The translations under genes and the position numbers were made by a program. From the NCBI RefSeq assembly GCF_900187015.1, contig NZ_LT906479.1, forward strand, positions 1,736,001-1,800,000: a DNA stretch of 64,000 nucleotides, read 5' to 3'. The notes under the pieces are model-generated. The model was not told the origin of the DNA, did no database searches, and saw nothing but the letters and a program-made list of their open reading frames with translations. This DNA is from Serratia ficaria. GTDB lineage: Bacteria > Pseudomonadota > Gammaproteobacteria > Enterobacterales > Enterobacteriaceae. Positions within the stretch are counted from its first letter, which is position 1; every line of letters begins with the position of its first letter. Shown in pieces: positions 2,038 to 41,890 of the stretch.

Positions 2038-7578
<5,541 letters not shown>

Positions 7579-7582
7579 GGCG

Positions 7583-8482
7583 TTACTCCATCATCTTCTC
7601 AATTGGCAACACCAGGATCGAGCTGGCGCCGAGCGCTTTCAGTTTTTCCATGGTTTCCCAGAACAGGGTTTCGCTGCTGACCATGTGCATCGCCACGCGG
7701 TTCTGCGCGCCGGCCAGCGGCAGAATGGTCGGGCGTTCGGCGCCCGGCAGCAGCGCGACGATTTCGTCCAAACGCTCGCTCGGCGCGTGCAGCATGATGT
7801 ATTTGGATTCACGCGCCTGGATCACGCCCTGAATGCGGGTCATCAGGCGGTCGATCAGCCGTTGCTTGGCTTCCGGCATTTCTCCGTCGCGCTGGATCAG
7901 GCAGGCCTTGGAGCGGTAGATCACTTCCACTTCACGCAGGCCGTTGGCTTCCAGCGTGGCGCCGGTGGAGACCAGGTCGCAGATGGCGTCGGCCAGGCCG
8001 GCGCGCGGCGCCACCTCCACCGAGCCGTTCAGCAGGCAGGATTTGAAGCGCACGCCCTGTTTGTCGAGGTACTGCTTCAGCAGGTGCGGGTAAGAGGTGG
8101 CGATGCGGGCGTCCTGCAGGCTTTGCGGGCCGGCGTATTCGGCGTCGAGCGGGGTGGCCAGCGACAGGCGGCAGCCGCCGAAGTCCAGGCGGCGCAGGGT
8201 GAAGTAGCGCGGGTCTTCGCCCTGAGCGCGGCGGGTGAGCAGCTCTTCTTCCAGCACGTTCTCACCGATGATGCCCAGATCGACCACGCCGTCCATCACC
8301 AGGCCCGGGATATCGTCGTCACGCACGCGCAGGATATCGATCGGCATATTTTCCGCAAAGGCGATCAGGCGTTGCTGTTGCAGGTTGATTTTGATGCCGC
8401 AGCGCGCCAGCAGCTCCTGGGATTCGTCGCTCAGGCGGCCCGATTTCTGCATTGCTATCCGTAAACGTGTTTTGTCCAGCAT
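7583..8482 (-). CDS. hisG: ATP phosphoribosyltransferase (long form)
   Basis: Committed first step of histidine synthesis: ATP + PRPP to phosphoribosyl-ATP, allosterically inhibited by histidine. The 299-residue length is that of the long HisG form with its own C-terminal regulatory domain (about residues 225-299), so no HisZ partner is expected. The N-terminus ([17 protein letters not shown]) and the PRPP-binding region around DLVSTGATL are clear. It is the first structural gene, downstream of the attenuator. Confidence 0.97.
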
Positions 8483-8552
8483 GGTAACCTCTGTTTAATC
8501 TGTAATTTTATGAATTTATTGTAAAAACTTTATTTTCTGTCTGTCCGGAGCC

Positions 8553-8585
8553 AAAAAAAAACCCTCGGAAGAAATCTTCCGAGGG
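8553..8585 (-). terminator. his operon attenuator terminator
   Basis: Read on the minus strand, a 10-bp stem (CCCTCGGAAG paired with CTTCCGAGGG, loop of 4) is followed by nine U. It lies between the leader peptide and hisG, as expected for histidine attenuation. Confidence 0.92.
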
Positions 8586-8654
8586 CTCTCTCTTGCGTTC
8601 TGCGCGCCACTGGAAGATTAAAAAACCGTCTTCCAGCACTCATCGCCTGAAAGA

Positions 8655-8702
8655 CTAGTCAGGGTGATGGTGATGATGGTGGTTGAACTGAACGCTGATC
8701 AT
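8655..8702 (-). CDS. hisL: his operon leader peptide
   Basis: A 15-codon leader encoding MISVQFNHHHHHHPD, with six consecutive histidine codons (CAC/CAT) and a TAG stop. The E. coli peptide has seven His. When histidyl-tRNA is scarce the ribosome stalls on this run and the downstream terminator at 8553-8585 does not form. It was found by reading the minus strand upstream of hisG. Confidence 0.95.
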   Translation of the reverse strand: MISVQFNHHHHHHPD

Positions 8703-8746
8703 GGGTGTTTTCTCTGTAAAGGTCGGTACTAGCCGAATTGCTAATT

Positions 8747-8776
8747 AACCTAAACTATCCGCCGCTCGTCGCGCAA
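8747..8776 (-). promoter_or_regulatory. Probable his operon promoter
   Basis: On the minus strand, a -10 element TAGGTT (8747-8752) lies in the same TTTAGGTTAA context as the E. coli his promoter. A possible -35 TTGCGC (8771-8776) sits 18 nt upstream. The transcript would start about 35 nt before hisL. The -35 choice is tentative. Confidence 0.55.
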
Positions 8777-8932
8777 CCCTTTTTTAACGTCATAAATTTA
8801 ATTTATTGAAACCGGTTGGGTTATTAGCTAAACACGGTTTTACCCAAGCTTAAGCGGCGGCGGATTGTATCGCCGTACGGAGTGGCGTAGCCTTAATGGG
8901 CAGAGCGCTGCGATCTTCAGGAGAGGGAGACG

Positions 8933-9757
8933 ATGAAAAAGGTAGCCATTATTGGTCTGGGCTGGCTGGGCATGCCGCTGGCCCTGTCGTTGATGAGCCG
9001 CGGATATGACGTGGTGGGCAGCAAAACCACGCCGGACGGCGTTGAGGCCGCGCGCATGAGCGGCATTGAATGCTATCGGCTGGAGCTGACGCCGGATCTC
9101 TTGTGCGATCCTGAGGATCTGGAACAGCTGCTGCGGGTGGATGCGCTGGTGGTGACCCTGCCGGCCCGGCGCACCGTCGAAGGCAGCGAAAACTACTTTA
9201 ATGCGGTGCGCATGCTGGTGGACAGCGCGATGGCCTTCGGCGTGCCGCGGGTGTTGTTCACCAGTTCCACCTCGGTGTACGGCGAAACCGCCGGCACGCT
9301 GCGCGAGGACTCGCCGCTGCGGCCGATCACGCCGTCGGGGCGGGTGCTGGCCGAGCTGGAGCGTTGGCTGCACGAGCTGCCGAACACCTCGGTGGACATC
9401 CTGCGGCTGGCGGGGCTGGTGGGCGCCGATCGTCACCCCGGCCGTTTCCTGGCGGGCAAGGTCGACGTCAAGGGCGGCTCGCAGGGGGTCAACCTGGTGC
9501 ATCAGGATGACGTGATCGCGGCGATACAGCTGCTGCTGAAGCTGCCGAAAGGCGGCCATCTCTACAACCTGTGCGCGCCGAGCCACCCCACCAAGCGCGA
9601 GTTCTACCCGGCGCTGGCCGAGCAGCTGCAGCTGGCGCCGCCGCAGTTCGCCGACGAGGCGGAGCAGGACGGGCGGCTGGTCGACGGCAACCGCATCTGC
9701 AACGAGCTGGGGTTCGAATACCAGTACCCCGATCCGGCGCGCATGCCGGTCAATTGA
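8933..9757 (+). CDS. yeeZ: NAD(P)-binding SDR-type epimerase/dehydratase family protein YeeZ
   Basis: Orthologue of E. coli YeeZ, which also lies divergently next to hisG. The N-terminal nucleotide-binding signature is GLGWLGMPL (about residues 8-16), with SSTSVYG and RLAGLVG further on, typical of extended SDR proteins. It has 274 residues. GGAGAGGG-like purines just before the ATG act as ribosome binding site. The substrate is unknown; the active-site Tyr of the SSTSVYG motif is followed by ..GRVLAEL rather than the canonical YxxxK, so catalysis should not be assumed. Confidence 0.9.
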   Translation: MKKVAIIGLGWLGMPLALSLMSRGYDVVGSKTTPDGVEAARMSGIECYRLELTPDLLCDPEDLEQLLRVDALVVTLPARRTVEGSENYFNAVRMLVDSAMAFGVPRVLFTSSTSVYGETAGTLREDSPLRPITPSGRVLAELERWLHELPNTSVDILRLAGLVGADRHPGRFLAGKVDVKGGSQGVNLVHQDDVIAAIQLLLKLPKGGHLYNLCAPSHPTKREFYPALAEQLQLAPPQFADEAEQDGRLVDGNRICNELGFEYQYPDPARMPVN

Positions 9758-10676
9758 TTGCCTGAAGCCCCGCCGCCTGCGGGGCTTTTTTTATCGCCCG
9801 CAGCAGGTCTTCCCGCAGCGCCGTCAGCGCCTCTTTGGGCGGCGCCGGGTGGGTGACCAGGCACAGCGTCGCCCGATAAGACAGCGCCTCGCCGCCCAGC
9901 CGCTTCAACATGCCTTGCTCCACCCAGCGCGCGGCGTAATGGGTGGGCAGGTAGCCGAGATATTCCCCGCTGAGCACCAGATGCGCCACGCTTTCCATGT
10001 GGTGGGCGACGGCGGCCAGGTTGTTCGGCGCGATCGGGCACAGCCGCTGCGCCAGCAGATAACCGCGTTTGACCCAGCGGGCGTTTTCAATCTGCTCGCG
10101 GCCCGGCCGCTCGGCGGCAAACAGCGGATGGTCGGCGCTGCAGTAGATCGCCTGGGTCTCCTCCAGCCACGGCTGATAGCGCAAATCCTCCAGCTGCTGG
10201 CCAAAATAGCCGATGCCCAGATCGAGCTGCTGGTTCAGCAATCCCTGTTCAATTTCCGTCGGCGAGCAAATGCGGCACTGCAACTGCACGTCCTGGTGCC
10301 GGCGTTGGAACCCTTTGATCGCCTGGCTGAAAGGATTGCCCGGCAGCGACACCAGGTTGTCCACCAGGCCAAGCTGCAGATCGCCGGTCAGCAGGCCGTT
10401 CAGCGACTGGCTGATGCGGGTAAAGTCGCGTGCGGCGTTGAACAGCGTGCGGCAGGCGATCAGCATGCGTTCGCCTTTCGGGGTGAGCATGAAACCGGAG
10501 CGGCCGCGCTGGCACAGGCGAAATCCCAACCGGGTCTCCAGCGAGGCGAGATGGGTGCTGATGGTGGACTGATTCATCATCAGCGGCTCCTGAGCGGCGC
10601 TGACGCCCTGCGCCTCCGCCACCGCGACGAACACCCGCAGCAGTTTGAGATCGATATCGCTTAGGTTGGTGAGCAT
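9750..10676 (-). CDS. LysR-family transcriptional regulator, probable regulator of the adjacent ureohydrolase operon
   Basis: A winged helix-turn-helix DNA-binding domain occupies about residues 1-65 (DIDLKLLRVFVAVAEAQGVS followed by NQSTISTHLASLETRLG), with a LysR substrate-binding domain after it. The ATG at 10676 is preferred because a GGAGG lies 5 nt before it; an upstream GTG at 10688 would put that Shine-Dalgarno sequence inside the gene. It is divergently transcribed from the guanidinobutyrase-like gene, the usual arrangement of a LysR activator and its target (compare gbuR-gbuA in Pseudomonas). It is not the orthologue of E. coli yeeY as I remember that sequence. Confidence 0.85.
   Translation of the reverse strand: MLTNLSDIDLKLLRVFVAVAEAQGVSAAQEPLMMNQSTISTHLASLETRLGFRLCQRGRSGFMLTPKGERMLIACRTLFNAARDFTRISQSLNGLLTGDLQLGLVDNLVSLPGNPFSQAIKGFQRRHQDVQLQCRICSPTEIEQGLLNQQLDLGIGYFGQQLEDLRYQPWLEETQAIYCSADHPLFAAERPGREQIENARWVKRGYLLAQRLCPIAPNNLAAVAHHMESVAHLVLSGEYLGYLPTHYAARWVEQGMLKRLGGEALSYRATLCLVTHPAPPKEALTALREDLLRAIKKAPQAAGLQAIN
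9766..9792 (+). terminator. Terminator after yeeZ
   Basis: AGCCCCGC (9766-9773) pairs with GCGGGGCT (9779-9786) and is followed by a T run. It ends yeeZ and overlaps the last codons of the convergent LysR gene. Confidence 0.85.
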
Positions 10677-34346: not shown

Positions 34347-34859
34347 ATGAACAAGGCATCCGTTGTATTTTCCGGCCTGCTGATGGCCGTTTCCGCCAGC
34401 GCCATTGCGGCTACCTCTGCAGACGACGCCGACATCAGCAAACAACCGCTGGAAAAGGTCGCGCCTTACCCGAAAGCCGAGAAGGGCATGAATCGCCAGG
34501 TGATCTACCTGCCGAAGCAAGACAACGAAGAAAACTACCAGGTTGAGCTGCTGATCGGCAAAACCCTGGAAGTGGACTGCAACCGCCACATGATCGGCGG
34601 CACGCTGGAAAGCAAAACTCTCTCCGGCTGGGGCTACGACTATCTGGTGCTGGAGAAGCTGTCTGAACCGGCTTCCACCATGATGGCCTGCCCGGACAAC
34701 ACCAAAACGCAGAAATTCATCGCCGCCAACCTGGGCGACGCCGCCATGCAGCGCTACAACAGCCGCCTGCCGATCGTGGTTTACGCGCCGAAAGACGTGG
34801 AAGTGAAATACCGCGTGTGGAAAGCGGAAGACACCATCAAGCAGGCAGAGCAGAAGTAA
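34347..34859 (+). CDS. eco: Ecotin, periplasmic serine protease inhibitor
   Basis: Dimeric inhibitor of trypsin-fold proteases. Signal peptide of about 22 residues (cleavage near SAIAA), then the mature protein with [12 protein letters not shown], the primary-site loop STMMACPD (P1 methionine at about M112) and the disulfide partners C78 and C115. With 170 residues it is slightly longer than E. coli ecotin (162). It lies between the secreted nucleosidase and a small membrane gene. Confidence 0.95.
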
Positions 34860-35373: not shown

Positions 35374-35726
35374 GGGGGGGCGTTGCGGGAACAGCTAATT
35401 ATCTATAGTTTTCAGTATGGTATAACGAGCTCGTGGCTGCGGATAACCGGCTTGCTTTAATGATTAGTCATTAATACTTTGTGTTGCTCTGTCCTCATGC
35501 ATTAGGTGCATGAATTTGCATGATGATCCGGTGCGAGTTTCACCCTTGCACGGATCGCGCCGGATCATGTACCTGCATGAAAAGCGACACATGAAGCGGG
35601 CAGGCGAGGCAGGGATAGCATTGCGCGCAAACTGGGTAGATCGATTGTTTTTGTTCGATTACTATGTATCTTTGACGATCACTCTTAAAAGTGGATCTTG
35701 AAATTCAGCCGTAGAGAGGTAGGTAA
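35374..35726. other. Intergenic region carrying the phage cos segment
   Basis: About 350 bases between the small membrane gene and the HEPN-like gene. It contains repeated TGCATG/TGCAT elements (35498-35580), imperfect inverted repeats built on GATCCGG, and the cos overhang sequence. The promoter of the downstream operon must lie in 35620-35720. The 63-codon open frame at 35510 runs through cos and is not accepted as a gene. Confidence 0.6.
35603..35621. other. P2-type cohesive end site (cos)
   Basis: GGCGAGGCAGGGATAGCAT, preceded by ACATGAAGCGGGCA and followed by TGCGCGC. It differs at three positions from the 19-base cohesive end I remember for phage P2 (GGCGAGGCGGGGAAAGCAC), and its last base agrees with phage 186. 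Phage terminase cuts here to package DNA. The neighbouring Q and ogr genes support the call. Confidence 0.8.
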
Positions 35727-36104
35727 ATGGAAGACTATGCCAGCGCTGCAATTAGGCATTATATAGATGCCGAAAAGTTAAAGGGTAGTGGCTCAATTGA
35801 TAATGCAGGGCACCTTGTCGGATTTGCTGCAGAATGCGCTTTAAAATATAAAATAAGCACTATCTCTCCAGATATGGATAGACCACGAGGACATTTTCCT
35901 GATTTTGTTAATATTGCGAAAAAAAGATTGAATTCTAGAGCACATATGTCTGTCTTTAAGCTTCTTTCCAATCCGATTTTAGCTGGGTGGGATGTTAATT
36001 ATAGATACTATGTTGATGGTACAGTTAACTCGGCTGTTCTAGATTCTTGGATTAGAGATACAGTTAGATTAATTTCTGCTGCGGGGTTAAAAGTAAGAAA
36101 ATGA
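35727..36104 (+). CDS. HEPN-like small protein, first gene of putative defence operon
   Basis: 125 residues, AT-rich unlike the flanking chromosome. The helix AGHLVGFAAECALK (27-40) followed by GHFPDF (55-60) resembles HEPN-domain proteins (AE-x-ALK then GH-x-L). The RNase motif R-x4-6-H of active HEPN toxins is not clearly present (the nearest are R10-H11 and R52-x3-H56), so it may be a non-catalytic partner. Its TGA overlaps the next ATG (ATGA), so the operon is translationally coupled. Function unknown; the domain call is tentative. Confidence 0.65.
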   Translation: MEDYASAAIRHYIDAEKLKGSGSIDNAGHLVGFAAECALKYKISTISPDMDRPRGHFPDFVNIAKKRLNSRAHMSVFKLLSNPILAGWDVNYRYYVDGTVNSAVLDSWIRDTVRLISAAGLKVRK

Positions 36105-37477
36105 ATAAGAAAATATATTTTGATGACTCGCTGCCTATTTTTGCAAAGTTTGTAAGTGAGGAGCTGGGCGTTGCAGCTCTCGAAAATAATTATTTTTTGC
36201 GTGATGCGGAAGGTCGACTCTCCGTAATTGTTTTAGATGATAAAATTGACAAGGAAAATAGAACGCGACTTGCAACTAAAGCTAAAGATTACTTGGGTGA
36301 TTATGTCGATGATAATGATTTTGTCTTCTCTACTCCTGATGAGCTCTTTGATGAGTCGTTAAAAGATATTGGCATTGCTTCTAAAATAACCTTGTCCTCT
36401 AGCTTTTATAGCGGGAATGTATTTTTATTTGAAAGGCGAATAATAGGTTCTGATTGGTTGAAAAAAACAAAACAAGAAACTAACAATCCAGTGAGAATTG
36501 TTTTTTCAAGTATTAAGGGGGGGGTGGGTCGTTCGACAGCCTTGTGTGTTGTTGCTAGTGCGTTAGCCCAAGAAGGAAAAAGAGTATTAGCAATAGACAT
36601 GGATTTAGAAGCTCCTGGGCTTGGCAACATGCTTTTAACTGAAAAAACTTTGCCAAAATATGGTCTTTTAGACTTTTTTGTTGAAAAAAATGTCAGTAAA
36701 GTTAATGGTTCTAGTTATATTGACATGGTCAGCTCTTCATGGATTTCATCAGGGAAGGGGCGTGTTGATGTAATTCCTGCTCTTGGTGAAAGTTCATTCA
36801 ATAATCCAGAAAATGTCTTAGGGAAGATTGCTCGATCTTATCTTTCTACAACTGATTGTGCTGGTAATAACTTCTCTTTCATTGATTATATGGATATCTT
36901 GGTAGATAAATTTTCTGATCCCACTAGATATGATGTTATTTTAATTGATGCTCGTTCCGGTTTGCATGAAACGACAGCGTCTGCAATGGTCGGCTTGGGG
37001 GCAAATATATTTTGTTTCGGTGTGGATCAGCCTCAAACTTTTGCTGGGTATGATCTGTTGTTTTCACATTTATCTATATTCAATAATATTGATCCTTCAT
37101 GGTTAAATAGATTTAATTTTGTTCAGGCTAAAGCTTCTGACGGACAAGATAAACGAGATCTTTTTGCCCAAAAAATGGAAGCTAAAATAGCTTCATATTT
37201 CTCAAAAAAAGAGGCTGATGATGATATTAATGTGGCATCCCTTAAGGACACATTTGAAGTAGAATGGGATGATACTGAATCAGTAGAGCTTATAACCGAA
37301 GAGATTGATGTTATTAATCCGATAATAAGTATTTTAGATGATAGCAGGTTCAGTGATTTTGATCCTATTTCGAATAGGGATATACTAACAAGTAATTTTT
37401 ATGATGTTACATTTAAACTTCTTTTGGAGAGGGTGAGATCAATCCTAGAGGAGTCTTTGGAGGGGGAGGAGATATGA
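36101..37477 (+). CDS. ParA/MinD-like ATPase with KGGVGRST loop, putative defence operon
   Basis: 458 residues. A unique ~125-residue N-terminal region precedes a SIMIBI-class NTPase: deviant Walker A KGGVGRST (139-146), where usual ParA/MinD has KGGxGKT/S, then DMDLEAPGLG (167-176) and YDVILIDARSGLHE (277-290, with an Asp at the Walker B/switch position). Replacement of the second lysine by arginine is unusual for ParA. An acidic segment (373-408) and a short C-terminal helix follow. It is not next to a ParB or plasmid partition site. It overlaps both neighbours by 4 nt. Confidence 0.75.
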   Translation: MNKKIYFDDSLPIFAKFVSEELGVAALENNYFLRDAEGRLSVIVLDDKIDKENRTRLATKAKDYLGDYVDDNDFVFSTPDELFDESLKDIGIASKITLSSSFYSGNVFLFERRIIGSDWLKKTKQETNNPVRIVFSSIKGGVGRSTALCVVASALAQEGKRVLAIDMDLEAPGLGNMLLTEKTLPKYGLLDFFVEKNVSKVNGSSYIDMVSSSWISSGKGRVDVIPALGESSFNNPENVLGKIARSYLSTTDCAGNNFSFIDYMDILVDKFSDPTRYDVILIDARSGLHETTASAMVGLGANIFCFGVDQPQTFAGYDLLFSHLSIFNNIDPSWLNRFNFVQAKASDGQDKRDLFAQKMEAKIASYFSKKEADDDINVASLKDTFEVEWDDTESVELITEEIDVINPIISILDDSRFSDFDPISNRDILTSNFYDVTFKLLLERVRSILEESLEGEEI

Positions 37478-38946
37478 ATACCATTAATTACTCCAAAATA
37501 TCAGAGGCCTTAGCTTCGTTGCCTTCTGATCATGATGCTAGTGGAGAGTATAAACCAACAGTAGATGAGATATTTGCGCCACAGCAACATGCTAATGCCT
37601 TAGATCCTTATACGACAATAGTTGTAGGTGCTAGAGGTACAGGGAAGAGCTTTTGGGCTGGTGTACTAGCGCAAAAGGATACTCGAGATGTTGCGGCTCA
37701 GTCGTATCCTAATTTAGGCCTTGAAAAGCTATTGGTTGCGGAAGGTTATAATGGTTTTCTATCGACAAGAATACTGCAGGAGTTAGTGCCTGAGGGACAG
37801 GAGAGTAAAAAATCTTACGAATTTTGGCAAGCGTCCATAATAATGGCTATCGATCGGATGATTGCTGAAGAAAGGGGCGTTAAATTTAAAGAAAAATTAT
37901 CTGACTATATAAAGAGATACTCAGATCCTGAAGATGCAGATCTATATCTTTCTGATCTTGATGATAAGCTTGAAGAGGATGAAACGACAGTTTTAATAAC
38001 ATTTGATGCCTTGGATAAGTTGTCTAAAGACTGGAGCCGTTCAAATTTATTACTGGATTCTTTGTTTGAAGTTGTATGGGACTTGAGAATCAGAAAGCGT
38101 ATTCGTGCAAAAATATTTATACGTCCTGAGCAATTCAATGATGATTCTTTAAAGTTTGTAGAAATACCAAAATTGAGAAGTTCTCGAGTTGAACTAGAGT
38201 GGACACAGATCGAGCTTTATGGGCTTTTGTTTTCTCGCTTAGGTTATGATCCGTCTAAAAATGCAGATGAATTTCTTAAAGTTGCAAAGTCGATAGGCGC
38301 TCCATTTAAGCCTTTACCTCATAAGCAAAGAAGAAATTGGAATCTTGTTAGTGATAAAAAAATTCAAAAAGACATGATGACTGCTCTTGCTGGCCCTTAT
38401 ATGGGGAAGAACTTTAAAAAAGGTGGAACATATGATTGGCCTTATAAACATTTGGCTGACGCTAATGGGGATGTTACACCTCGGAGCTTCTTGAAGCTAT
38501 TTTCAGAAGCTGGTAAGTTTGGATCCTTATTACAAGATAGGGCTATCTCCGCGGAAGGTATTCGACATGGTTTACGTGAGGCTTCAAAAGTAAGGGTTGA
38601 ACAGTTAGTTGTTGAATATCAATGGGTTAAGAGGGCTTTGGCACCTTTGGCTGGATTGCGTGTGCCATGTACGGAAGAGGATATACTTTCCCGTTGGGAA
38701 GATAGTAATACCATAGAAGTTATTATGAATGCTTCTCAGTCTGATAGTGGTGGTTTCTTGCCACCATACCCCTATCCCCTCTACAAGAAGTTGAAGGGTG
38801 AGGCAAAATTATCAGCATTAGCCGACTCAATGGCTAAGATTGGCTTGTTTGAAATTAGAGCTGATGGCCGCTTTGATATCCCTGATTTATTCAGGGTTGC
38901 AGCTAAGATGTTGAAAAAAGGCGGTATAACACCAACCGCAAAATAA
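37474..38946 (+). CDS. P-loop ATPase, STAND/AAA-like, third gene of putative defence operon
   Basis: 490 residues. Walker A is GARGTGKS (52-59), Walker B VLITFDALD (173-181), and IRPEQF (216-221) follows on the next strand as a sensor-like element. The FDALDKL arrangement resembles STAND or ORC-type ATPases. The C-terminal ~230 residues (from about 260) lack motifs I recognise and contain a probable winged-helix near the end (LADSMAKIGLFEIRADGRFDI, positions ~440-465). The family is unassigned. Starts by ATGA overlap and is followed by its own terminator. Confidence 0.75.
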   Translation: MNTINYSKISEALASLPSDHDASGEYKPTVDEIFAPQQHANALDPYTTIVVGARGTGKSFWAGVLAQKDTRDVAAQSYPNLGLEKLLVAEGYNGFLSTRILQELVPEGQESKKSYEFWQASIIMAIDRMIAEERGVKFKEKLSDYIKRYSDPEDADLYLSDLDDKLEEDETTVLITFDALDKLSKDWSRSNLLLDSLFEVVWDLRIRKRIRAKIFIRPEQFNDDSLKFVEIPKLRSSRVELEWTQIELYGLLFSRLGYDPSKNADEFLKVAKSIGAPFKPLPHKQRRNWNLVSDKKIQKDMMTALAGPYMGKNFKKGGTYDWPYKHLADANGDVTPRSFLKLFSEAGKFGSLLQDRAISAEGIRHGLREASKVRVEQLVVEYQWVKRALAPLAGLRVPCTEEDILSRWEDSNTIEVIMNASQSDSGGFLPPYPYPLYKKLKGEAKLSALADSMAKIGLFEIRADGRFDIPDLFRVAAKMLKKGGITPTAK

Positions 38947-38952
38947 TTTGGT

Positions 38953-38980
38953 AAGGCTGCTATTGTTGCAGCCTTAATTT
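38953..38980 (+). terminator. Terminator of the three-gene operon
   Basis: AAGGCTGC (38953-38960) pairs with GCAGCCTT (38968-38975), loop of 7, followed by AATTTT. It separates the operon from the convergent phage Q fragment. Confidence 0.8.
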
Positions 38981-38990
38981 TAAAATTATT

Positions 38991-39689
38991 TTATAGTGTA
39001 TATTTTTTAAAATTAATCACGTTGCAATTGAAATGCGAGTTTATTGCTTGCATTCTTTCTTGTAGTGGTATCAATTCATTCCTCACAAACACCTGACTAG
39101 CTTTCTCTACATCCCCAAACCCCCCAGTATTATTCGGAACGATCCCCATCATCTGAGGTGGCACGCGATGAGCACTCAACAAATCATCCCGGGTAGCATT
39201 CTTAATATTGAAGAAATCATCTTTGGTAGCGACTTCACTCAGAGGCAGTATTTTTATGCCGTCCGGGGCGTACATGAACAAATTGCGGAATTTCCCCAAG
39301 CCCTTGGTATCACACATGGCTTGACGCATTCTATCAACGTCACTGGTACTCTGTGCTGCGTCGGTCATATATAAGATGTAACCGGCGTGCGCCCCATTTT
39401 GATAATACTTCCGGCGGAACAAGGTCGCTGTCTCGTTCAGCCATGCTGAATTAAGCGCGCTCAGGTATTCCGGCAGCCCGTACAGCTCTTGGTTAATATC
39501 CGGCTCAATCAAATGAAACACGCTACCCGGAATGAACTGGTGCGGCACTTTCCAGTCCTGCACAAACCAATACGTATCAGGATCAACACCTCGGCGGGTG
39601 TATTTCGCCGGTGAACACTTTAGTCGTAACGGTTCTCCAAGTCGGTTTTTCCTGACCTCTAAAAAGGCGTTACCAAATACCAGATAATC
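38991..39689 (-). pseudogene. Phage P2 gpQ-like portal protein, C-terminal fragment
   Basis: About 232 codons remain of a ~344-residue portal protein. Stretches such as SVFHLIEPDINQELYGLPEY, FRRKYYQNGAHAGY, NLFMYAPDGIK and RVPPQMMGIVPNN are those of P2-family portal proteins. The phage reading frame ends exactly at the IS left end (39689/39690); the ATG at 39716 and the first nine codons lie inside the IS, so a fusion protein of 241 residues could be made but would not be functional as a portal. It points toward cos as in P2. Confidence 0.9.
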
Positions 39690-39768
39690 TGTAAGCATCC
39701 CGGTAAACCGGACCATTCACTTTCAGAGATCTTCCGGCATACTGACTATGTCCCCGGAGGAGATCGCC

Positions 39769-40035
39769 ATGCGCAAAGCACGATTCACCGAACACCAGAT
39801 CATCGCCGTTCTGAAGTCCGTCGAAGCCGGACGCACCGTTAAGGATGTCTGCCGCGAGGCCGGGATCTCTGAGGCCTCGTACTACAACTGGAAAGCGAAG
39901 TTCGGCGGCATGGAATCCTCTGATATCAAAAAGATGAAGGACCTTGAGGATGAAAACCGCCGGCTGAAACAGATGTTTGCGGACCTGAGTCTCGAGTGCC
40001 GCGCCCTGAAAGACGTTATTGAAAAAAAGCTTTAA
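39769..40035 (+). CDS. IS3-family OrfA (helix-turn-helix transposase subunit)
   Basis: 88 residues with an HTH_Tnp_1 domain (KARFTEHQIIAVLKSVEAG, then EAGISEASYYNWKAKFGGM) and a leucine-zipper-like C-terminus (DLEDENRRLKQMFADLSLE). The ATG at 39769 is preferred because GGAGGA sits before it; an earlier ATG at 39748 would include that site. The A-rich heptamer A AAA AAG at 40023-40029 is a standard slippery site for -1 frameshifting into orfB. Confidence 0.88.
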   Translation: MRKARFTEHQIIAVLKSVEAGRTVKDVCREAGISEASYYNWKAKFGGMESSDIKKMKDLEDENRRLKQMFADLSLECRALKDVIEKKL

Positions 40036-40085
40036 AACCAGCGATAAAGCGTGAGCTGGTCAGCTATCTGACCGCGCAGTTTGCC

Positions 40086-40880
40086 ATGAGCTTACATCAG
40101 GCATGCAGGGCATTGTCGCTGAGCAGGACGGTATTTCGTTATCAGCCGGATACGCGACGTGATGAGCCGGTGATTATGGCGCTGACCGTGGCGGCTGAAC
40201 GCTATTCGCGATACGGATTTAAAAAGCTTTTTCAGGTGCTGCGCAGGCAGGGCAATACCTGGAACCATAAAAGAGTTCACCGTATTTACTGCCTGCTGAA
40301 ACTGAATTTTCGCCGCAAGGGAAAACAGCGCCTGCCTGTGCGTTATCCGGCTCCGCTGGCGACGCCAGAGGTGATGAACCAGAGCTGGTCCATCGATTTT
40401 ATGCACTATGCGCTGGTGTGCGGCAGGCGCTTCCGGACCTTCAACGTGGTGGATGATTTTAACCGCGAAGCACTGGCGATCGAAATTGACCTGAATATCC
40501 CCGCGCAGCGGGTCGTGAGAGTGCTGGACAGGATCGTGGCAAACCGCGGATATCCGCTGAAAATGCGGATGGATAACGGTCCGGAGCTGATCTCGCTGAC
40601 GCTGGCACAATGGGCAGAAGAGCATGGTGTGATGCTGGAATTTATTAGGCCCGGCAAGCCCACGTAGAATGCCTTTATCGAACGGTTCAACCGGACGTAC
40701 AGGACAGAAATACTGGATTTTTATCTGTTCAGAACGCTGAATGAAGCACGGGAAATTACAAAGCGCTGGCTGGCAGAATATAACAGCGAGCGCCCTCATG
40801 AATCCCTGAATAACCTGACGCCGGAAGAATACCGGCTGATGGCTGAAACCCCGGAAATCTCAAAAAGTGCGTGGAACTAA
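40086..40880 (+). pseudogene. IS3-family OrfB transposase, interrupted by an amber codon
   Basis: DDE integrase-type transposase in the -1 frame relative to orfA. HTH_21 region near the start, then the first catalytic Asp in SWSIDFMHY and the second in RMDNGPEL. A TAG at 40665-40667 stops the frame where related elements have PGKPTQNAF; the frame then continues without further stops (FIERFNRTYR with the catalytic Glu) to TAA at 40878-40880. A single C-to-T change (CAG to TAG) explains it. The element should be unable to move by itself. Confidence 0.88.
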
Positions 40881-40896
40881 AACGGGTGTACTTACA

Positions 40897-41086
40897 GGAA
40901 AAGCTTCAGAGCGGTGTGGCTGAGTTCTCACTGTCGCTCGCGATGGGTCGGGCCAACATCATCCCGGAAACGCCGGTACGCGTCAGCGGGTTTAAAGCGG
41001 CGATCGATGCGCAAGACTGGATAGTGAGCAAAGTCACGCACAATTTGAGTAACGGAGGTTTTACGAAGGTGCTGGAGTTTGAAGTT
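40897..41086 (+). pseudogene. Phage P2 gpD-like late control/tail protein, 3' fragment
   Basis: About 62 codons (EKLQSGVAEFSLSLAMGRAN, PETPVRVSGFK, IDAQDWIVSKVTH, FTKVLEFEV) match the C-terminal part of the ~387-residue gpD tail protein of P2. The 5' part has been removed with the neighbouring DNA by the IS event. The last ~10 residues of gpD are also missing: after LEFEV the frame runs into unrelated sequence. Confidence 0.85.
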
Positions 41087-41116
41087 TTTTTTCCAATCGG
41101 AATTATGATTTATCTT

Positions 41117-41154
41117 TCATGTAGAAAATCTGCAAATGCAGATTTTCTACATGA
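41117..41154. repeat. Perfect 18-bp inverted repeat
   Basis: TCATGTAGAAAATCTGCA and its exact reverse complement separated by two bases (AA). It sits at the point where D homology has ended and before the 3' end of the orphan gene. It may end transcription of that gene on the minus strand, though no U run follows. Other possibilities are a recombination or protein-binding site. Confidence 0.8.
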
Positions 41155-41167
41155 GACAGACTAACGC

Positions 41168-41890
41168 TTACTTAGGGAATGAGAATGGTAATACTTCGTA
41201 TCCATGTACATGGGTTGATGCTTGCTCAGTGTGTTCGAATAAACTAAGGAAAGCTTCTGCTTCGATAGAATCTTCAAGGGGAGATACATGCGAATTGATA
41301 TACGGGAAAAGAGTAATCGCAGCATTCATAGATAGGGGTATATAGTTTATAAATATATCTGCTTTGGTAAATCCGCGGCTAACAGCTTCAGCCTCAAATT
41401 TATCTGCATTTAAATAATCCCTAACACGATTTCTAGCTTCGGGTTTCAACCTTGATTCTTGCCTTGGTAAAGAAAGCATTAAATCAAGATCGCTCCATGA
41501 AATAGGAACGTTGAAAAAGCCGTGCCCTTCGCTCTCCGAAAAACTAGGGAATTTTACGTAGAAATAATTTTTAGAATGTGTAGGGTTAGCTATTAGTTGT
41601 CTGTGGCAGTTATAAAGCGTCCTGATTCTATTGGCTTTATTGTGGTGTCTTGCATTCCTAATTATTAATATCGTTAGTAGTTGAGGAATAAGATACCAAT
41701 CAGGGGGTATCTGATTGTGAGACATGTTGTCATATAGATTGTGGAATGCGTTAAGTTGTGTATTTAAACCCGATTCTAAATTGCCAATAGCCTCAGCACG
41801 GTCAATATTCAATAATCTACGAAAAGACCATTCCGATTCCATGAGTACTCGAAATGCTTGAGCTAGGTCCTCGAAAGAGTGTGAAAGCAT
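41168..41890 (-). CDS. Orphan protein in the D-ogr accessory site, possible HEPN-type
   Basis: 240 residues, AT-rich, on the strand opposite to D and ogr. I do not recognise the family. The segment LTILIIRNARHHNKAN (72-87) has the RN-x3-H pattern (R78, N79, H83) seen in catalytic HEPN ribonucleases, in a largely helical protein. The neighbourhood, a non-phage gene inserted between D and ogr in a P2-like genome, is typical of lysogenic-conversion or anti-phage cargo. Function is not established. Confidence 0.6.
   Translation of the reverse strand: MLSHSFEDLAQAFRVLMESEWSFRRLLNIDRAEAIGNLESGLNTQLNAFHNLYDNMSHNQIPPDWYLIPQLLTILIIRNARHHNKANRIRTLYNCHRQLIANPTHSKNYFYVKFPSFSESEGHGFFNVPISWSDLDLMLSLPRQESRLKPEARNRVRDYLNADKFEAEAVSRGFTKADIFINYIPLSMNAAITLFPYINSHVSPLEDSIEAEAFLSLFEHTEQASTHVHGYEVLPFSFPK

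Follow-up and report, generated by a model that had tools for sequence, protein, structure and literature searches.

A PDC-M28-type three-gene module, probably anti-phage cargo, in a P2-like phage remnant of Serratia ficaria

Three adjoining genes, here named A, B and C, lie within a 64,000-nucleotide stretch of the Serratia ficaria chromosome (NCBI RefSeq assembly GCF_900187015.1, contig NZ_LT906479.1, positions 1,736,001 to 1,800,000 of the forward strand; this whole stretch is called the window below). Comparison of their proteins with profile libraries, predicted folds and related loci shows that the trio is a real, conserved three-gene module, probably anti-phage cargo. Assignments of the three genes, by sequence or by predicted fold, are as follows.

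35727-36104, plus strand: gene A, PDC-M28A, predicted HEPN-fold protein of 125 aa
36101-37477, plus strand: gene B, PDC-M28B, SIMIBI (MinD/ParA-like) ATPase with the motif KGGVGRST, 458 aa
37474-38946, plus strand: gene C, PDC-M28C, predicted STAND/ORC-type ATPase core with the Walker A motif GARGTGKS, 490 aa

All three proteins match component models of the PADLOC candidate system PDC-M28 (E 1.1e-19 for A, 3.3e-90 for B and 9.5e-120 for C) over nearly their full length, in order and within one operon, and by these profile matches the trio is a member of that system, with its components A, B and C. The A and B of the window fit the models less well than many of their relatives do. The initial annotation, made from the letters of the window, had proposed an undescribed system without a match to any named one; because all three proteins match the PDC-M28 component models, and NCBIfam also holds matches, we reject this proposal. 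The remainder of its description of the operon, namely three AT-rich genes overlapping by ATGA in a high-GC chromosome, agrees with the coordinates and with the base composition: ATGA is shared at both the A/B and the B/C junction, and the GC content of A, B and C is 0.37, 0.36 and 0.40, respectively, versus 0.59 for the window. PDC systems were proposed through guilt-by-embedding, and most of those that are discussed in PMC12988326 still await validation; PMC11811056 calls them unpublished candidates. A literature search on PDC-M28, KGGVGR and Sll1717 gave no relevant paper; preprints and most subscription papers lay outside this search and a study may exist. We know of no activity or mechanism for PDC-M28.

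Gene content at related loci (designated by L numbers) indicates that the trio travels together with no recurring fourth gene. Conserved co-occurrence of the three genes, which the initial annotation had set as a test of its proposal, exceeds chance and is seen whether B or C is used as the anchor. At loci found through B, A and C are in place at 74 of 80 genome loci; five of the others have no A recognised by our own rule and one has no C, three of these six being at a contig end. A search through C in samples of 369 genomes of the class and 398 of the phylum gave 29 strong loci (E <= 5e-98), and after fetching the flanks the order A-B-C was found at 25 of them, with the window itself, a B-C fusion and two broken-frame loci (L138 and L170) counted in. 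Among the remaining C-anchored loci, the contig of L158 ends before A is reached and L142 has a truncated B. Clustering of open reading frames (ORFs) around 99 loci (L004-L102), based on simple ORF calling and with some loci duplicated between collections, gave no further cluster that more than four loci share. In seven relatives (L097-L100, L112, L139 and L140) B and C are joined in one frame. Directly upstream of the fusion a HEPN gene is recognised by profile in L139 (122 bits) and L140 (24.5 bits), while the match is marginal in L100, L097 and L098 (16.6-14.1 bits, E 0.003-0.019), where the upstream genes keep by eye the pattern G-x3-E-x3-K ... H ... W-x4-RY; L099 and L112 contain no upstream sequence. 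These fusions with a HEPN-like gene upstream therefore suggest that B and C form a stable pair with A as a regular partner. In L101, homologues of P and Q are followed by a related two-ATPase frame; by profile, the A part of this locus is not significant (8.6 bits) and its C part is marginal (12.9 bits). In Pseudomonas lopnurensis (L060) the trio is present twice, as divergent copies separated by about 1.5 kb.

The predicted structure of A has a HEPN fold, in line with the HEPN-like character ascribed to it earlier. Sequence search of solved structures gave no HEPN match for A, the best match being SAP30 (E 0.04). Conserved residues of the protein are E36, K40, H56, R93 and Y94. Among 86 sequences the Rx4-6H ribonuclease motif of HEPN proteins is not conserved; it is present at H56 in 28 and anywhere in 67, versus a mean of 60 in shuffled sequences. 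Because of this lack of conservation, a role of the small protein, effector or adaptor in the initial annotation, as nuclease effector is doubtful. While A shares its predicted fold with HEPN proteins such as those of HEPN-MNT, Csm6 and AbiV, it differs from them in the unconserved motif, and the trio has no nucleotidyltransferase partner.

B matches the NCBIfam model NF047398, "KGGVGR-motif variant AAA ATPase", with 177 bits (cut-off 90) over residues 130-324. Its motif KGGVGRST is a deviant Walker A in which the signature lysine (KGG) is present and the P-loop lysine (GK[ST]) is replaced by arginine. This arginine, R144, is invariant in an alignment of 37 proteins (36 of the 120 relatives listed and the B of the window), so that the earlier assignment of B as a ParA/MinD-type ATPase with arginine for lysine stands, with the residue fixed among close relatives. 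KGGVGR is found in 125 of 128 strong B frames, duplicates included, the other three having no readable motif, a count that is biased because the scan itself used that motif. The C-anchored loci gave 24 KGGVGR, one RGGVGR and no lysine form, with one more pattern match in an unrelated frame. Among 17 weak B matches, three have the lysine form and four lack the motif. Residues 1-125 of B have no match among solved structures, all 25 matches listed starting at or after about position 124. B is similar to ParA/MinD SIMIBI ATPases over residues ~130-324 and differs from them by the arginine, by the extra N-terminal region and by its fixed HEPN and STAND-like partners. MinD/ParA-like domains that are predicted to be inactive have been described in other conflict systems (PMC7159879). 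By sequence, the KGGVGR family reaches beyond the trio: KGGVGR domains are present in other frames of 586-947 aa in L145, L146 and L147, with a TPR-like PADLOC match in L145 and a mad8-like one in L147. In L147 the match is to B and not to C, and no HEPN-like gene lies upstream.

C is classified in NCBIfam as a Sll1717-family P-loop ATPase, and its Walker A motif is canonical. Nothing significant was found for C by sequence search of solved structures. Its predicted fold resembles the core of STAND/NLR (NB-ARC/NACHT-type) and ORC ATPases, with ORC/Cdc6 scoring almost as high as the STAND/NLR proteins. The initial annotation of C as STAND/AAA-like is supported by this fold, but the C-terminal half, which had been left unassigned, aligns in the predicted fold with the region of NB-ARC/ORC proteins that is made up of helices and a winged helix. 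In contrast to NLR/STAND NTPases, including bacterial NACHT proteins, C ends after the core without a repeat sensor domain, and it needs A and B as separate genes. The fold of C is also near that of BrxC, the BREX ATPase, but BrxC is not the nearest fold and no other BREX component is present among 120 neighbouring ORFs examined around the trios of relatives.

Surrounding the trio are the following features.

35603-35621, plus strand: cos-like site of a P2-type element, by pattern match and by-eye agreement with the P2 ends
38953-38975, plus strand: hairpin 3' of C, a probable terminator read from the sequence
38991-39716, minus strand: portal gene Q, C-terminal part only (phrog_68, E 4e-120; Phage_portal, E 1.1e-19)
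39748-40667, plus strand: IS3-like transposase ORFs that break up the remnant (40086-40667: rve, E 6.3e-22)
40871-41164, plus strand: phage tail protein, C-terminal fragment (phrog_12925, E 1.2e-29)

Compared by eye with the two P2 ends joined, right before left, the cos-like site and its surroundings agree at 32 of 36 bases from position 35593. The site also fits, without a mismatch, an 18-letter pattern containing ambiguity codes; this pattern, with up to three mismatches, is expected 0.46 times in shuffles, making the pattern count alone weak. In Serratia marcescens 106R (L004), 21 of 22 bases agree. On the other side of the trio, the truncated Q stands tail to tail with C. The hairpin 3' of C (AAGGCTGC-TATTGTT-GCAGCCTT) is followed by an interrupted T run, which agrees with the private terminator claimed for the operon, but the hairpin is not among the calls of the terminator scan. 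The ORF 39748-40035 is given as IS3-like from its look only. No gpA was seen in the window. The phage element here is thus a remnant consisting of cos, the trio, the cut Q, the IS3-like element and the tail fragment, and not a complete P2-like prophage; the earlier placement of the trio between cos and Q is upheld with this qualification. In L004, where window positions 35496-39689 align at 95.8% and the chromosomal flanks at about 90%, the element is longer, with more of Q and P kept and a gpA fragment that is barely above the cut-off (Phage_GPA, E 1.1e-7, 31.7 bits versus 31.4). The trio might be considered a decaying prophage relic without present function in the strain, since the phage genes around it are truncated or gone. 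However, all three frames are open and full-length, and relative to L004 changes in B and C are mostly synonymous (15 synonymous and 4 non-synonymous in B, 13 and 4 in C), giving dN/dS values of 0.07 for B (19 changes) and 0.08 for C (17), with 0.28 for A (4). We accordingly give a functionless relic hardly any credence.

Three further observations concern the vicinity of the element. An AT-rich ORF of 240 aa on the minus strand (41168-41890) at the far end of the remnant is possibly a second cargo gene; it has no PADLOC or PHROGs match and one sub-threshold Pfam match (RPM2, E 4.8e-4). An ecotin gene (34347-34859, Pfam E 5.1e-51) is located near the left edge of the remnant. In L004, left of the element (2068-4474), three tandem look-alike lipoprotein-type genes stand behind a 496-aa gene, an arrangement that recalls effector-immunity arrays.

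The stretch from gpA to gpQ next to cos is, in P2-like phages, a published hotspot of validated defence systems, whose cargo takes part in competition between phages (PMC9122126 and PMC9519451). The position of the trio between cos and gpQ therefore agrees with the earlier suggestion of likely defence cargo at a P2-like accessory site. Like old, tin and other cargo of this hotspot, the trio occupies the gpA-gpQ accessory region, adjoining cos and Q. However, old and tin of P2 are on the gpA side of cos, with less than 200 bases from cosL to Q, while the trio is between cos and Q, and its proteins belong to unrelated families by the libraries searched. On two other viral contigs of P2-like type, L087 and L093, Q is followed immediately at its 3' side by the trio in tail-to-tail orientation, with a B that is only 36-37% identical to that of the window; cos was not recognised in them and the observation is one of adjacency to Q only. 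In Klebsiella phage ST15-OXA48phi14.1, a TIR-domain gene stands between Q and a weak match to cos (16 of 22 bases, the best background matches reaching 13-15). Another possible defence gene, annotated Smc, is present at 7348-9966 in the gpA-gpQ region of the Yersinia P2-like phage OM046624.1 (L152).

A second link to immunity is provided by fusions. At five loci from four genomes of one genus (L132-L136), the C frame runs on through a metallophosphoesterase-like part to a Walker A of the NACHT type. Pfam, run on L132 and on the similar fusion L083 only, gave Metallophos (E 1.2e-11) and NACHT (E ~5.5e-11), while the reading of L133-L136 is by eye. In L132 the fusion begins with a part that matches PDC-M28C (E 1.8e-153). 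L083 is from a Magnetococcales bin and probably represents the same genome as L132. Because relatives are fused to this immune-receptor-like protein, an antiviral role of the trio is likely. The metallophosphoesterase-NACHT fusions (L132-L136 and L083) occur in several copies per genome and might be a separate defence system.

The distribution of the trio is sporadic. It is present in 3 of 30 Serratia genomes, one of which is apparently S. marcescens 106R again. A strong C match was found in 8 of 369 genomes of the class sample (11 at E <= 0.001), and 27 of 398 genomes of the phylum sample match C at E <= 0.001. In a second Serratia genome (G755; L175), a distant trio (6180-9317; C 28% identical) stands alone, 18 bases behind a gene that we recognise as dedD and 170 bases before what we take to be cvpA, with no integrase visible in the 16 kb around it. 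The location of this copy between housekeeping genes suggests that the three genes suffice and speaks against a partition function. The initial annotation had held that homologues regularly found outside mobile or defence contexts with a housekeeping role would speak against its proposal; a homologue does occur outside mobile elements, but with no sign of a housekeeping role and in a sporadic distribution.

Partition or maintenance is the function that B by itself might bring to mind, with B as ParA, C as an ORC-like DNA-binding partner and A as an accessory protein. In the same region, a putative plasmid-partition system is present in about a quarter of the P2-like phages of E. coli (PMC9122126); B has a match to a ParA-like partition protein in PHROGs (E 1.9e-13), and C resembles ORC/Cdc6. 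By the libraries searched, the trio has no ParB. However, the P-loop lysine is replaced by arginine throughout, and there are no direct repeats in 35374-36200 or 38900-39100, the single inverted repeat (35523-35568) lying upstream of cos. Just 24 of 72,556 plasmid records match B, four of them over at least 80% of its length. The HEPN partner and the NACHT fusions do not fit such a module either, which makes partition a very unlikely role for the trio.

Neighbouring genes were analysed in 120 of the 280 nearest ORFs at 80 loci, all from L004-L047. The remaining ORFs are 13 of more than 900 aa, 28 from the first batch, where short ones were discarded by hand, and the 119 of a second batch. Seven PADLOC models were matched among these 120 flanking ORFs (E <= 1e-10; mad2 in three members, QueC, MzaA, three ThsB models and PDC-M50B in one each), a number obtained without a control and showing no clear defence-gene enrichment. 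The few PADLOC matches, together with mostly metabolic and transport Pfam families in the flanks (among 25 listed of 123) and the L175 insertion between housekeeping genes, would be expected of a regulatory or stress module that is directed at the host and has no antiviral function. The sporadic presence of the trio, the repeated location beside gpQ and the NACHT fusion argue otherwise, and we regard a host-directed module as improbable. The occurrence of the trio at both phage and chromosomal locations (L087, L093 and L175) and the engagement of hotspot cargo in phage-phage competition could also point to a conflict module with non-phage targets or a narrow set of targets, for instance plasmids, phage satellites or superinfecting phages related to its own. 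We consider this restricted range of targets a minor possibility, though one to be kept in mind.

On balance, we favour, with some reservation, the explanation that the trio is a complete, self-contained PDC-M28-type anti-phage module, which was cargo of the P2-like cos-proximal hotspot and was kept as the phage decayed. This explanation is suggested by the match of all three genes to a PADLOC candidate, the cos-gpQ position and the Q adjacency in L087 and L093; by the NACHT and B-C fusions, the A-B-C order, the sporadic spread, the absence of a fourth gene and the solitary trio of L175; and by the fold of C near those of NLR proteins and BrxC and the low dN/dS of B and C, although few changes underlie the latter. 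Several findings weigh against it. The trio has no recognisable catalytic effector, the HEPN motif of A being unconserved; the flanks show no clear enrichment in defence genes; PHROGs places B with partition proteins; and L135 and L137 have a strong C with neither A nor B nearby. B was matched in none of 50,697 phage records and the DNA of the trio has no DNA-level match in 5,426 E. coli genomes, so that the trio appears to be rare in the best-studied P2-like phages.

Apart from fold and gene order, the mechanism of such an anti-phage module is a matter of inference. The fusions in relatives suggest that B and C may form one obligate complex, which would act as a nucleotide-dependent switch. 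C would be the active NTPase, changing its state or oligomerising upon a phage trigger, while B would bind nucleotide, probably hydrolyse it poorly and set the assembly. A might dock through E36, K40, H56, R93 and Y94, as an adaptor or as an RNA-directed output. The outcome would be arrest of the infection, most likely by shutdown of the cell. In one lineage the output is seemingly attached directly to C as the metallophosphoesterase-NACHT part. It is possible, and we propose it tentatively, that PDC-M28 represents a distinct NLR-like immunity in which a sensorless STAND core, an arginine-fixed SIMIBI ATPase and a HEPN adaptor form a switch with exchangeable outputs, such as the metallophosphoesterase-NACHT fusions.

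PDC-M28 is catalogued but apparently unstudied, and what is added here is the predicted folds of A and C, the fixed arginine of B, the A-B-C order at loci found through C, the fusions, the P2 contexts and the solitary trio of a second Serratia. The locus of S. ficaria offers a compact native test object of about 3.3 kb with its own ends, located in a hotspot with validated systems. The arginine fixed in Walker A and the two kinds of fusion, B-C and NACHT, lead to testable hypotheses, according to which PDC-M28 may combine a switch of two ATPases with a HEPN adaptor and an output that can be detached.

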